Assembly: GCA_012841405.1 (NCBI GenBank)
Contig: DUUT01000073.1
Coordinates: 1 to 64,000 of the forward strand
Reading direction: 5' to 3'
Source: Chloroflexota bacterium
GTDB lineage: Bacteria > Chloroflexota > Anaerolineae > UBA1429
Length of the DNA: 64,000 nt
The notes below the pieces were generated by a model. It did not search any database. It was not told the origin of the DNA and worked only from the letters and a program-made list of their open reading frames with translations. Shown here in pieces: positions 47,918 to 54,182 of this stretch. How positions within the stretch are numbered: position 1 is the stretch's first letter; the number at the start of each line of letters is the position of its first letter. Made by a program: the position numbers and the translations under genes.

Positions 47918-49933
47918 CTACTTGACCTGTTCGCGCGTATAGAATTCGAGGATGTCGTCCGGCTGCACGTCGTTAAAGCCGTCGATCCCCACACCGCACT
48001 CCATGCCGGTCGACACCTCGCGGACGTCCTCGGTGTAGCGCTTGAGCGAGCTCACGCGTCCCTCGTGGAGGATCTGGTCGCCGCGCCGCACGCGCACCTG
48101 CGCGTTGCGCAGCGCCTTGCCCTCGGTCACCTGCGCTCCGGCAACCTTGCCCACACGCGGGATACTAAAGACCTCACGGACGATGGCCTTGCCCTGCTCC
48201 ACGTTCACGTACTCGGGAGCGAGCATGCCCGTCAGTGCCAGTTGCACATCCTCGATGAGGCGGTAGATCACCTCGTAGGTCTTGATGCTGACGTGCTCCG
48301 CCTCGGCCAGCCGTTGAGCCGATGGCTCGACCCCGACATTAAAGCCGAGGATAATCGCCTGGGAGGCCACGGCCAGCATCACATCCGACTCGGCGACGTT
48401 GCCGACGCCCTCATGGATAAACTTGACCCGCAAGTCGCCGACGTCCAGCTTGTCCAACGAGTTCCGGATCGGCTCCAGGCTGCCCTGGACATCCGCTTTG
48501 AGGATGAGGTTCAGCGACTGCACGGCGCCCTCCTGGGCGCGCTCATAGATCTGGTCCAGCGTCAACCCGCTCACGGGCTGCGCCTCGGCCTGCTGCGCAG
48601 CCTGGGCACGCTCCTCGGCGCGAGCGCGCGCCTCGCGCTCGCTCGGCAGCACCTCAAAGATGTCCCCTGCCTCGGGGACGTCCCGCAAGCCAATCACGAC
48701 CACCGGCGTCGAGGGGCCCGCGCGACGGATCCGCCGTCCCTGATAGTCCGTCATGGCGCGAATCTTGCCATAGGTGTGGCCCACCAGCAGCGCATCGCCG
48801 GTGTTCAGCACGCCGTCCTGCACCAGCAGCGTGGCGGTGGACCCGCGCGAGCGGTCGAGACGCCCTTCGATGACCACGCCCTGGGCAGGCCCCTTGGGCT
48901 TGGCCTTGAGTTCGGCCAGCTCTGCCACCAGCAGGATCATCTCCAGCAGCGTGTCGATGCCCGTCTTTTGCTTGGCCGAGACGGGCACACAGATGACATC
49001 GCCGCCCCAATCCTCGACCACCAGGCCGACATCCGCGAGCTGCTGCTTCACAAAGTCGGGGTTGGCGGTGGCCAGGTCGATCTTGTTCAGCGCCACGATG
49101 ATGGGCACCTGCGCCGCGCGAGCGTGGTCAATCGCCTCGCGCGTCTGCGGCTGGACCCCATCATCCGCCGCGACGACGAGCACGGCAATATCCGTCACGC
49201 TGGCGCCTCGGGCCCGCATCGCCGTAAACGCCTCGTGGCCGGGCGTATCCAAAAAGGTGACCTGCCGCTCTCCAACCGGCACCTGGTAGGCACCGATGTG
49301 CTGGGTGATGCCCCCCGCCTCTTGTGCCTGCACGTGCGTGGCACGGATGGCGTCCAACAGCGACGTCTTGCCGTGGTCCACGTGGCCGAGCACCGTCACC
49401 ACCGGTGGGCGCTCACGCAGCTCTTTTTGCTCCTCGGCAGTGTACTCGCGTCGACGCACTGCCGGAGTCTCGACCTCCTCCGGCTCCTCAGGCTCCGGAA
49501 CCTCCATCTCTTTGACGGTGTAGCCCATATCCTCAGCGACGATCGCCGCCGTATCATAGTCGATGAGCTGGTTGATGTTGGCCATGATGCCCGCGTTCAT
49601 CAGTTCCTTGATGAGATCGATCGGGCTGCGCCCCATGGCATCGGCCAGATCACGCACGGTAATCGCTTCGGGGAGCTCGAGTTCCTTGGGTGCGGCGCGA
49701 GAGGGCTCGGGTTGCCGCTGCGCAGGGGCCACGCGCTGCTGATCCCGTGCGGGCGCGGTGCTTCCGCCGCCAGGACGCGATCCCCGCTGCCCGCCACCGC
49801 CTCGCGATCGATTGCCACTCGGGCGAGCCCCCGATCGGGGCCCGCGTCCCCCGCCGGAGCGCGCCTGCAAGGCGCCAGATGAAGCGCCCTTGGCGCGATA
49901 CGCGCTCTTCTTACGGTTGTTGCGTATGTTCAT
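47918..49933 (-). CDS. infB: Translation initiation factor IF-2
   Basis: IF-2 is the GTPase that brings fMet-tRNA to the 30S subunit. The 671-aa protein is short for the family. A basic Gly/Arg/Ser-rich N-terminus (about 1-105) is followed by one IF2_N module ([26 protein letters not shown]). The G domain has [19 protein letters not shown] and NKID. Domains II-IV follow, ending with [12 protein letters not shown]. The start is the ATG of MNIRNN; the ORF track extends through non-coding leader. The 361-base gap upstream to ylxR is unusual. Confidence 0.96.
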
Positions 49934-50294
49934 AGTGTGCCCCTCTCTCTGTACAGACTTGGCATGAGCCGGCGGGGATCCGTCACAGCCGACACGGCCA
50001 CGCGAGCACCACCGGAGCGCGATACGCCCACGATGACTCGGAAGCCTATCTACCAGTCCTATACGCTTTGGTGTAGAAACCGGGCCAGTTCGTAGCCAGA
50101 CAGCCGTGAGGGGGCTATTCGGGGGAGCAACCAACACCCTGGGGCCTGTGGAACCTGCAAAGGTACCAACTCACAGCGCAACCATGGTAGTTCCCCCCGG
50201 CAACATAGCTGATCCTACGTCTGTGTGGCTTCCCATCCCACTGGTCAACACGATGGTCCTCTGGTTCCGCTCGTGTCGTGCAGAGCGCCTCACG
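49934..50294. other. Unusually long gap between rnpM/ylxR and infB
   Basis: These genes are normally adjacent or separated only by an L7Ae-like ylxQ. Here 361 bases hold no convincing ORF on either strand, no tRNA and no clear terminator or promoter. ylxQ is absent. A structured leader for infB is possible but I cannot support one. Confidence 0.5.
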
Positions 50295-50627
50295 CTACTC
50301 TCGCGCCGCCTCTCGCGCCGCATCCGGATCGTCGGGCGGTAGCTCCGCTGTCATGTGCTCCATCGCGTAGGCCTCGATCATGGCTCGGTCCTCAGCGGAT
50401 AGCTCGATCTTGAGCGCACGCTCAAACTGCTTGCGGGCCAGTGCATCCAGCCAGCACTGTCTGCTATCGCACACATAGGAGCCGCGACCCGGCATTTTGC
50501 CCGTCGGATCGATCACCACACGCCCATCGGTCGTACGCACAACCCGATAGAGCTCCCGCTTGGTGAGCACACGCCGACACCCAATGCAGGTGCGTTGGGG
50601 TTGACGCCTCGAGCGTTTAGCAGGCAT
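50295..50627 (-). CDS. rnpM: YlxR/RnpM family protein (DUF448)
   Basis: A 110-aa nucleic-acid-binding protein of the YlxR family, reported as a modulator of RNase P in Bacillus. The family signature TCIGCRRVLTKRELYRVVRT, followed by DPTGKMPGRGSYVC and CWLDALARKQFERAL, is complete. The C-terminus adds about 20 acidic residues. It lies 78 bases after nusA in the classic nusA-ylxR-infB order. Confidence 0.92.
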   Translation of the reverse strand: MPAKRSRRQPQRTCIGCRRVLTKRELYRVVRTTDGRVVIDPTGKMPGRGSYVCDSRQCWLDALARKQFERALKIELSAEDRAMIEAYAMEHMTAELPPDDPDAAREAARE

Positions 50628-50705: not shown

Positions 50706-52295
50706 TTAGCTCCAATCCTCGTCGTCTTCCCATGCGCCGCGGCGGCTCGGCTTGCGCTTCTTGCGGGCCACCACACGGCCCAGGCGCTCGTCATACTCGA
50801 GGATGCGCTGCCGCCCCTTCTTGTCACGCGAACGACGGCGCTCCTCCTCTTCGTCGTCTTCCTCCTCGAACACAGGCGGGGGAGCCTCCCAGCCTTCGGG
50901 CGCGGCGAGCTCGGGCTCGTCCTCCTCTGCCGGGGCTGTGGCCTGCGCCTCCTCGGCCTCTTTGGCATATTCGACGTCTTCGCCCTCTGCCACCGCCGCC
51001 TCGCCCGCGAGCGGAGCGTCCTCAGCCTCGGAAGCCTCTACGGCCTCGTCCTCGGGCCGAGTCTCCTCAGACTCGAGCGCCTCCTCCGGCGCCCACGCGT
51101 CCACGGGCAGGTCGCCCGCCTCGAGCTCGATATCCTCGTCCTCGAGCCCCGCCTCCGCCGCTGCCAACAGCTCGGCCGCAGCGCGACGGGCCTCCTCACG
51201 CGCCTCCGCGCGCTGGGCGGCCTCGAGGGCCTCCGCAGCGAGCCGCTCCGCCTCCTCGGCGGCTTCGGTCTCGCTGCGGATGTCAATCCGCCAGCCCGTC
51301 AGCTTGGCCGCCAACCGTGCATTCTGCCCCTCACGGCCAATGGCCAGGGACAGCGACCGATCCGGCACGACGACCTTGGCCGTCTTTTCTTCCTCGTTCA
51401 GGTAGACCGAGACGACCTTGGCCGGGCTGAGGGCATTGGCGATGAACTCCTGGACGTCCGCCGCCCAGGGAACAACATCGATTTTCTCACCACTCAGTTC
51501 GTTGACAATGTTCTGGATACGCACGCCGCGCATCCCCACGCACGATCCCACGGGATCGACGCCGGGCTGAAGGGCAGCCACGGCCACCTTGGACCGCGAC
51601 CCCGCCTCCCGCGCAATCGCCTTGACCTCGACGGCCCCATTAAAGATCTCGGGGACCTCGAGCTCCAGCAGGCGCCGCAGCAATCCGCGATGCGTACGCG
51701 ACACCGTGATCTGCGGCCCGTGGCCGGTCCGTTCGACCTCGACCACATAGACCCGCAGACGCTGGTTGAAGCGGTACTGCTCGCCAGGAATCTGCTCGGA
51801 GCGAGGCAGTAGAGCCTCCGCCTTGCCCAGGCTCAGCGTGACGTTCTGCGACCGCGAGTCAATGTTGCGAACGACGCCGTTGACGATCTCGCCAGAGCGA
51901 TCGGCGTACTCGAGGTACACCGAGTCGCGCTCCGCCTCACGGATCCGCTGCATAATGACCTGCTTGGCCGTCTGTGCGGCGATGCGGCCAAAGTTGCGCG
52001 GCTTGACCTCGATATCCACAAACTCGCCGATCTCGGCGTCGGGCCGGATCGCGCGGGCCGCATCCAGGGTCATCTCGATGCCATCGTCCTCGACCTCTTC
52101 CACGACCTGCTTCTTGATGAACACACGGGCTTGCCCCGAGTGCGGATCGAGCGTCACGTCGATATTCTGGTTGGCGCCATAGTTGCGCTTGTATGCCGAA
52201 ATCAGGGCAGCCTCGATCGCCTCGAGGATGACCTCGGGTGCGAGGTTGCGGTCTGAACAGAGCTGAGTGATGGCGATCTCGAACTCACTCTTCAT
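50706..52295 (-). CDS. nusA: Transcription termination/antitermination protein NusA
   Basis: NusA binds RNA polymerase and modulates pausing, termination and antitermination. The 529-aa protein has the N-terminal RNAP-binding domain ([13 protein letters not shown]...), an S1 domain ([24 protein letters not shown]), two KH domains including [29 protein letters not shown] and [21 protein letters not shown], and then about 175 residues of Glu/Ala-rich tail ending in a basic patch. The start is the ATG at 52295; the ORF-track extension includes the leader hairpin. The acidic tail exceeds what firmicute-type NusA has. Confidence 0.95.
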
Positions 52296-52339
52296 GTAAC
52301 CCGGAAACCTCCTGAATGCAGCCAAGAGCGCCACAATAA

Positions 52340-52364
52340 GAAAAGTGGGGAGCGCCCACTTTTC
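52340..52364 (-). terminator. Attenuator-like hairpin in the nusA leader
   Basis: Perfect 10-bp stem GAAAAGTGGG-cgctc-CCCACTTTTC read in the nusA direction, followed by TTATTG, so the RNA 3' side is U-rich (UUUUCUUAUU). It begins about 15 bases after the predicted start site and ends about 45 bases before the nusA ATG. This position suits autogenous control by NusA. Confidence 0.65.
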
Positions 52365-52385
52365 GTAAAACAACAGTTCGCTGAG

Positions 52386-52414
52386 AGTATATCACGTCTC
52401 AAGGTGAAAGGCAA
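52386..52414 (-). promoter_or_regulatory. Promoter of the nusA-infB operon
   Basis: Minus strand: -35 TTGCCT (52414-52409), 17-base spacer, -10 TATACT (52391-52386). The start near 52379 gives an 84-base leader holding the attenuator-like hairpin. Confidence 0.7.
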
Positions 52415-52419
52415 GTGAC

Positions 52420-52446
52420 GGCGGGCCACGCATAACGTGGCCCGCC
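52420..52446 (-). terminator. proS terminator hairpin abutting the nusA promoter
   Basis: GGCGGGCCACG-cataa-CGTGGCCCGCC, an 11-bp perfect stem just past the proS stop. It is followed in the proS direction by CACTTGCCTTT, which is also the -35 region of the nusA promoter. Confidence 0.7.
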
Positions 52447-52451
52447 CGGCG

Positions 52452-54182
52452 TCACGCCTCGGCCGGCATGGCCGGGTCCGCCCTGAGCGTCGCGTCGATC
52501 GCCGCTTCCACCTCATCCGCAGGCACGAGGCGACGATCCGCCTCCCACCGTGCCTTGAGCTCGAACTGCTGGTTGGCCAGCGTGCGACGGCTCACCGTCA
52601 CACGGACGGGAATGCCGATCAGATCGGCGTCGTTGAACTTGACGCCGGCGCTCTCGGCCCGGTCATCGTAGAGCACCTCATAGCCGCCGCGCCGCAACCG
52701 CTCATACAGCGCATCCGCGGCCGCCGATACCTCCCCATCGTTGCTGCCCAACGACACGATGTGCACCTGGAACGGCGCCACGCTCGTCGGCCAGATGATC
52801 CCCTTGTCATCGTGGTGCTGCTCGATGATGCAGGCCAACAGGCGCCCGGTGCCGATACCATAGGAGCCCATCACGACGGGACGGGCCACACCGTCGCGGT
52901 CCAAAAAGTCGGCCCCCACCGCCGTGCTGTAGGTGGTACCCAGCTTGAAGAGGTGGCCGACCTCAATCCCACGGGAGAGCGTCAGCAACTCACCACAGTT
53001 GACGCAGCGATCCCCTTCGCGAGCCAGGGCAATGTCGCCCACGGCCTCCACCGCAAAGTCGCGGGGGTAGTTCACGTTGCGGTAGTGGTAGCCCGCCTCA
53101 TTGGCGCCCGCCACCGCGTTGTTCACGGTAGTGATCGAGTCATCGGCGATGACACGCACCCCAGAGAGGCCGATGGGTGAGGCATACCCCGCCACGATAC
53201 CGGCGGCCTGCAGCTCTTCGTCCGTGGAGGGGTGCAGCTCTTCGCCGCCCACCATGTTGGCCAACTTGGTGGGGTTGACGTCCAGGTCACCGCGGATCAC
53301 GGCAAAGATCACCTCCCCCGCCGAGGTGCTGTAGAACACGGCCTTGTACGTCTGCCGCGTCTCGACGCCGAGAAGCGCCGCCACCGCCTCGATGGTGGTC
53401 GTGCCCGGCGTGGCGACCTTTTCCAGGGGAGCCTCCACCTCACGGGGCCCTTCGCCCTTGACAAACACGGCCTTTTCCGCGTTGGCCGCATAGCGACAGT
53501 GCGGGCAGAGCACCAGAGTGTCCTCCCCCGCTGCGGTCACGACCATGAACTCGTGCGATACCGACCCGCCCATGATGCCCGTATCCGCCTCGACGGCAAG
53601 CGCCTCGACACCACAGCGGGCGAAAATCCTCTCGTACGCCCGATAGATGCTCGGGTAAAAGGCGTCCAGGCTCTCAAAGTCGGCATGAAAGCTGTAGGCG
53701 TCCTTCATGATGAACTCGCGGACGCGCACCAGCCCCCCCCGCGAGCGCGGCTCATCGCGGAACTTGGTCTGAATCTGGTACATCATCTGGGGGAGCTGGC
53801 GGTACGAGTTGATCTCCTGACGCGCCAGATCCGTGGCCACTTCCTCATGGGTCATGGCCAGCACCATGTCGTGGTTCCCACGATCCTTAAAACGCACCAA
53901 TGCCGGGCCGGGCGCCGGCGCGTCGTACCTGCCCGTAGCGCGCCAGATATCCGCCGGGTGCACCACCGGCATCAACAACTCTTGGCCATCGATGGCGTCC
54001 ATCTCCTCACGCATGATCTGCTCAATCTTGCGCAGGACACGCCAACCGATCGGCAGATAGCTATAGATCCCCGCCGCCAACTGGCGGATCAGCCCGGCGC
54101 GCAGCGAGAGCTGATGACTGACCAGCTCGGCGTCCGAGGGGTTTTCGCGCAACGTACGGCCAAAGAGGGTCGAAAAGCGCAT
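52452..54182 (-). CDS. proS: Proline--tRNA ligase
   Basis: Class II synthetase charging tRNA-Pro. The 576-aa protein is the bacterial type with an editing insertion. It shows GIYSYLPIGWRVLRKIEQIMREEM and the motif 2 region TKFRDEPRSRGGLVRVREFIMKDAYSFH. The INS domain (about 235-390) has the GDLDVNPTKLANMVGG pattern, and CVNCGELL is a possible zinc pair. SYGIGTGRLLACIIEQHHD is motif 3 and leads to the anticodon-binding domain. The start is the ATG of MRFSTLF behind GAGGAGG; the ORF track begins 31 codons early. Confidence 0.96.
   Translation of the reverse strand: MRFSTLFGRTLRENPSDAELVSHQLSLRAGLIRQLAAGIYSYLPIGWRVLRKIEQIMREEMDAIDGQELLMPVVHPADIWRATGRYDAPAPGPALVRFKDRGNHDMVLAMTHEEVATDLARQEINSYRQLPQMMYQIQTKFRDEPRSRGGLVRVREFIMKDAYSFHADFESLDAFYPSIYRAYERIFARCGVEALAVEADTGIMGGSVSHEFMVVTAAGEDTLVLCPHCRYAANAEKAVFVKGEGPREVEAPLEKVATPGTTTIEAVAALLGVETRQTYKAVFYSTSAGEVIFAVIRGDLDVNPTKLANMVGGEELHPSTDEELQAAGIVAGYASPIGLSGVRVIADDSITTVNNAVAGANEAGYHYRNVNYPRDFAVEAVGDIALAREGDRCVNCGELLTLSRGIEVGHLFKLGTTYSTAVGADFLDRDGVARPVVMGSYGIGTGRLLACIIEQHHDDKGIIWPTSVAPFQVHIVSLGSNDGEVSAAADALYERLRRGGYEVLYDDRAESAGVKFNDADLIGIPVRVTVSRRTLANQQFELKARWEADRRLVPADEVEAAIDATLRADPAMPAEA

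Follow-up and report, generated by a model that had tools for sequence, protein, structure and literature searches.

Directly upstream of nusA, this Chloroflexota genome carries an extended -10 promoter followed at a short distance by a terminator-like hairpin with a GUGGG/CCCAC core, and both elements are real and strongly conserved. Together they probably constitute a promoter-proximal transcription attenuator, through which NusA would limit the expression of its own operon, nusA-ylxR-infB, by negative feedback; we class the device as a rimP-less, compact and phylum-wide variant of the known NusA-autoregulated attenuator.

Organization of the nusA locus

In the window (i.e., the whole stretch of 64,000 nucleotides that was analysed), the genes concerned are all situated on the minus strand in the order proS, a gap of 156 bases, nusA, ylxR and infB. 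The upstream gene proS (52452..54182) was recognized by its Pfam domains tRNA-synt_2b, tRNA_edit and HGTP_anticodon together with the list of open reading frames, its start codon being chosen by homology. The 529 aa of NusA (50706..52295, ATG at 52295) comprise NusA_N, S1 and KH domains and a long acidic tail, and the sequence AGGAGG (52308..52313, minus strand) is the probable ribosome-binding site. The tail (50706-51300, minus strand) is of low complexity and exhibits a short basic stretch at its end; the NusA open frames of the relatives are likewise long (about 470-757 aa). Domain matches identify ylxR (DUF448; 50295..50627) as the second and infB (IF-2; 47918..50137, start codon uncertain) as the third gene of the operon. 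The gap contains no rimP gene between the hairpin and nusA, which lies directly downstream, as the preliminary description had stated.

The nusA promoter consists of a -35 element TTGCCT (52409..52414) and a -10 element TATACT with a preceding TG (52386..52391; both minus strand), separated by 17 bp. It matches the consensus at 9 of 12 positions, and one such site was found against 0.2 expected in shuffled sequences. From the position of the promoter, transcription is predicted to start near 52379.

Downstream of the promoter follows a perfect inverted repeat of 10 bp, the attenuator hairpin GAAAAGUGGG-CGCUC-CCCACUUUUC (52340..52364, minus strand), which is supported by sequence, folding, conservation and covariation. 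The T-stretch directly after the stem reads UUUUCUUAUU in the window, the consensus being UUUUCUUNUU; it forms an interrupted U-tract (UUUUC-UUAUU), the distal part of which (52335..52339, minus strand) is identified by the conserved tail, taken from one genome per family. The release point is predicted to lie about 45 nt from the start, and the corresponding early transcript of 45 nt folds with -15.0 kcal/mol (z -4.3). Conservation is the main evidence against a chance arrangement of hairpin and promoter, the folding score being secondary. Neither an antiterminator nor a sensor structure is visible in the leader. An outer stem around the terminator (CAGC/GCUG in the window, others at loci L008 and L015) was considered and rejected as a general feature; the outer-stem duplexes reach on average -10.1 kcal/mol with their own partner vs -9.1 kcal/mol with mismatched ones, and 11 of 83 fall below p 0.1.

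A second, GC-rich hairpin, GGCGGGCCACG-TTATG-CGTGGCCCGCC (52420..52446, minus strand), is situated just after proS. It is very stable (52446-52420: -27.4 kcal/mol, z -6.8), is followed by GUCACUUGCCUUUCACC instead of a U-run, and its role is uncertain. The -35 element begins 5 bases past it, which had led to the proposal that the downstream tract of a proS terminator doubles as the -35 of nusA. This proposal was not upheld: the hairpin lacks a U-run and is not conserved, and the juxtaposition is local to this genome. Of 89 class relatives, only 9 showed proS ahead of nusA (some regions being too short to tell), and these share no hairpin after proS; in G010, a member of the same family, a GC hairpin is likewise found after proS. 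Since the upstream gene varies while promoter and hairpin stay, a terminator/-35 sharing with proS is not supported as part of the device, and the proS terminator was rejected as its conserved partner.

Conservation in the class and the phylum

The position of NusA could be determined in 95 of 100 class relatives, and the DNA upstream of it was read. Of the 90 class regions examined, 83 contain the motif AGUGGG...CC[CG]ACU ahead of nusA; one of the remaining seven is interrupted by a contig end. The spacer of the best promoter measures 17 bp in 74 of these 83 motif-bearing regions, the -35 element begins with TTG in nearly all and continues with C in 56, and TG precedes the -10 element in 71; the promoter score favours consensus letters, the TTGC form and the short distance between promoter and stem not being built into it. 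This distance (-10 to stem start) has a median of 30 bases and, though short in the class, varies among relatives. For the class, a stop RNA of about 45-50 nt is predicted, its median length being 49 nt when the whole U-tract is included. The claim that a nusA promoter and a terminator-like hairpin are compactly placed before nusA is thus borne out, on the minus strand, by sequence, folding and conservation.

With further Chloroflexota included, 160 of 178 genomes without RimP, and 74 of 80 families, carry GUGGG...CCCAC in front of nusA. A contig of Ornatilinea apprima (L272) likewise contains the motif. A lack of conservation had been named in advance as evidence against a regulatory hairpin, and the opposite was found. 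Taking one genome per family, the loops are 4 to 12 bases long, 59 of the 74 being distinct; the tail next to the stem retains its consensus, and the sequence farther out is near background. Outside the core, the first pair is A-U in 68 families, C-G in four and G-U in two, and the covariation at pairs 1 and 3 exceeds that in all 2000 shuffles; the shuffles ignore relatedness, so that this result is to be read as support and not as a probability. Changed core pairs with the structure kept occur as CUGGG/CCCAG (G152 and G183) and as GUCGG/CCGAC (G083); these genomes were picked for their pairing and therefore illustrate rather than prove the point.

The lineages f11, f52 and f78 possess a different hairpin or none before nusA, which means that the GUGGG form is not indispensable. 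In family f11 (L078/G090, L084/G024, L085/G059), GGGGCGC..GCGCCCC followed by UGUGUUGUU replaces the GUGGG form before nusA.

Concerning whole genomes, AAGUGGG...CCCACUU occurs in 86 of the 100 scanned, nearly always once and, among the matches listed, mostly at nusA. As the stem is found about once per genome and mostly at this gene, the other terminators of these genomes hardly use it.

Absence of rimP

The RimP family (PF02576) was found neither in the genome studied nor in any of the 100 class relatives, in a search in which 10 of 14 control genomes were positive. In the phylum sample, RimP is present in 15 of 121 genomes belonging to four families (f47, f57, f60, f82), where it is encoded near nusA; in about 88% of the Chloroflexota sampled it was not found. 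A RimP too diverged for the model might still be encoded somewhere in the genome, none being situated between leader and nusA.

The rimP-bearing Chloroflexota were considered as carriers of the GUGGG form and rejected, since it precedes rimP in 0 of 15. Two f57 genomes (L124/G190, L125/G111) exhibit a TATACT box and then GGGCC..GGCCC with UUUUUCUUUU just before rimP, possibly the ancestral form of the leader. The simplest reading would be that the leader stayed in place while rimP was lost. With the leader on nusA in genomes where RimP was not found, NusA and not RimP is indicated as its conserved partner.

Comparison with known leaders

The device is most similar to the rimP-leader of Naville & Gautheret 2010, a short terminator of the form GGGc...gCCC with a T-stretch at rimP-nusA-infB operons, for which no antiterminator is visible and NusA was named the best candidate regulator; the question of whether the leader is read by RimP or by NusA was not decided there (PMC2965389). 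Both share a G-rich 5' arm and a C-rich 3' arm with a GGG/CCC core and a subsequent U-stretch (here in the window and in 160/178 genomes), as well as the position at the head of an operon holding nusA and infB, the lack of a visible antiterminator and NusA as the proposed regulator. Despite this similarity there are some differences. The loop-side c-g pair is found in only 2 of 74 families, and the window has GGGC...CCCC; the authors, however, write this pair in lower case, so that the requirement may not be strict (PMC2965389). Furthermore, the distance to the promoter is very short here and, the genome having yielded no rimP, the leader stands immediately 5' of nusA instead of opening a rimP-nusA-infB operon ahead of rimP. 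Our literature search found no description of the leader in Chloroflexota.

In Bacillus subtilis, NusA is autoregulated through NusA-stimulated termination in its own leader (PMC12288461). The arrangement corresponds to the one described here, with a terminator(-like) hairpin between the promoter and the NusA operon and with NusA feedback, the latter being proposed here; the NusA dependence is experimental in B. subtilis and inferred in the present case, and the likeness concerns arrangement. The leader of the B. subtilis rimP operon is also reported to be longer, about 180 nt (PMC2965389), whereas about 45-50 nt lead to the stop point here. The rimP-nusA operon of Streptococcus agalactiae is similarly compact: a predicted intrinsic terminator stops transcription 31 nt past the start, and the short and the long RNA share their start (PMC4448216). 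There, however, rimP is the first gene, and the likeness again concerns arrangement.

The Rfam family RF01770 (rimP) also represents, in curated form, the leader of this type of operon, but its model spans 102 positions and gives no match in the genome studied even at E up to 10. Scanning the window with Rfam yielded no match at the gathering score and only unrelated weak matches in E-value mode. The RF01770 model misses the short, widely spread GUGGG hairpin, which represents a gap in the library.

NusG-dependent terminators are characterized by distal interruptions of the U-tract together with terminal A-U pairs, the interruptions being typical also of NusA-dependent ones, and an NT dipeptide of NusG has been linked to pausing (PMC8060035). 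The present locus has the distal interruption, the terminal A-U pairs and a NusG with the NT dipeptide; such features (including an NT or HT dipeptide of NusG) are enriched in, not exclusive to, the group of terminators stimulated by NusA or NusG.

Occurrence in other phyla

In named genomes, a scan for the exact pattern returned at least 80 loci, many of them without nusA nearby, as expected for a scan of this kind. Among the matches listed, two groups can be distinguished by the distance to nusA, with the pattern either directly before the gene or about 460-570 bases before it. The direct group among these matches comprises Chloroflexota and records titled Phycisphaerales, Planctomycetota, Brocadiaceae, Spartobacteria, Opitutae and Pelagibacteraceae, the far group, again by record titles, Clostridiales, Neomarinimicrobiota, Deltaproteobacteria, Rokuibacteriota, Calditrichaeota, Muproteobacteria and Gammaproteobacteria. 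RimP could be detected in all 6 genomes checked from the far group vs 0 of 7 from the direct group (non-Chloroflexota). The direct loci in genomes that yielded no RimP are L229, L236, L237, L239, L244, L249 and L212, under Pelagibacteraceae, Spartobacteria, Planctomycetota, Opitutae, Brocadiaceae and Phycisphaerales titles.

It was also considered whether Planctomycetota, as a further phylum poor in rimP, possess the leader almost universally. The suggestion was rejected since the motif is patchy: motif and U-run are found at about 5 of 30 nusA loci, and RimP scores above the cut-off in 7 of 40 genomes.

Probable mechanism and alternative explanations

RNA polymerase starting near 52379 would transcribe the GUGGG/CCCAC hairpin within about 40 nt. 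At the interrupted U-tract, it would either stop and release an RNA of about 45 nt or continue into nusA; polymerase-bound NusA, probably with the help of NusG, would favour hairpin formation and release, such that a high NusA level would result in less nusA mRNA. The preliminary description had named the hairpin, about 40 nt into the transcript, as a plausible target of NusA feedback. To this are now added its phylum-wide conservation and the precedents elsewhere, as well as two points that had escaped that description, namely the published attenuator family and the apparent absence of rimP from the whole genome and class. The analysis shows the anatomy, the conservation of promoter and hairpin, the covariation and the apparent lack of rimP, whereas termination itself, its dependence on NusA and the feedback are what we infer.

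The elements themselves, a promoter, a hairpin and a U-tract, need no regulator, and with no antiterminator or sensor in sight they might form a constitutive attenuator, which terminates a fixed share of the transcripts and keeps operon output low without NusA feedback. This is rather unlikely: a plain terminator needs no particular stem, and here the stem is almost invariant and about unique per genome, and NusA feedback is documented at the same place in B. subtilis (PMC12288461). A conserved stem sequence is also what a binding site for another protein would exhibit, and with ylxR and infB in the operon, YlxR, IF-2 or a ribosomal protein might read the hairpin and control termination or translation of the operon. 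The literature found reports no such reader for the leader, and NusA is documented in B. subtilis (PMC12288461), which makes a different protein improbable; RimP itself is an unlikely reader given its apparent absence.

It is still less probable that the hairpin, which would be situated near the 5' end of the full-length mRNA, protects or processes nusA mRNA instead of terminating transcription, as the conserved U-rich tail directly 3' of the stem serves termination and not protection, and as termination has been observed at the equivalent site of S. agalactiae (PMC4448216). The perfect 10-bp inverted repeat just past the promoter would also suit a DNA operator bound by a repressor dimer. However, a half-site spacing of 4 to 12 bases and a variable distance to the promoter could hardly be tolerated by a dimer site, and the conserved tail is one-sided; the variable loop length favours an RNA hairpin, on account of which the operator reading, of very slight probability, was dropped.

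The preferred reading, attenuation with NusA feedback, can tentatively be carried further. The stem is near-invariant beyond what a terminator needs, which suggests, as a hypothesis, that it is read specifically. The GUGGG/CCCAC duplex could conceivably be a sequence-specific signal for NusA-bound RNA polymerase in many phyla, i.e., an autoregulatory address that stays with nusA after the loss of rimP and is unused by the ordinary terminators of the same genome, a doubtful but possible extension.

Implications

The type of attenuator is known from other bacteria; here it is situated directly on nusA without a detected rimP. The rimP-less genomes with the hairpin on nusA constitute a natural deletion experiment, in which RimP drops out and NusA becomes the strongest candidate. 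Should the stem be recognized in a specific manner, sequence swaps that preserve the pairing should weaken the control. For the Chloroflexota, the finding adds a proposed compact feedback module with a clear promoter.
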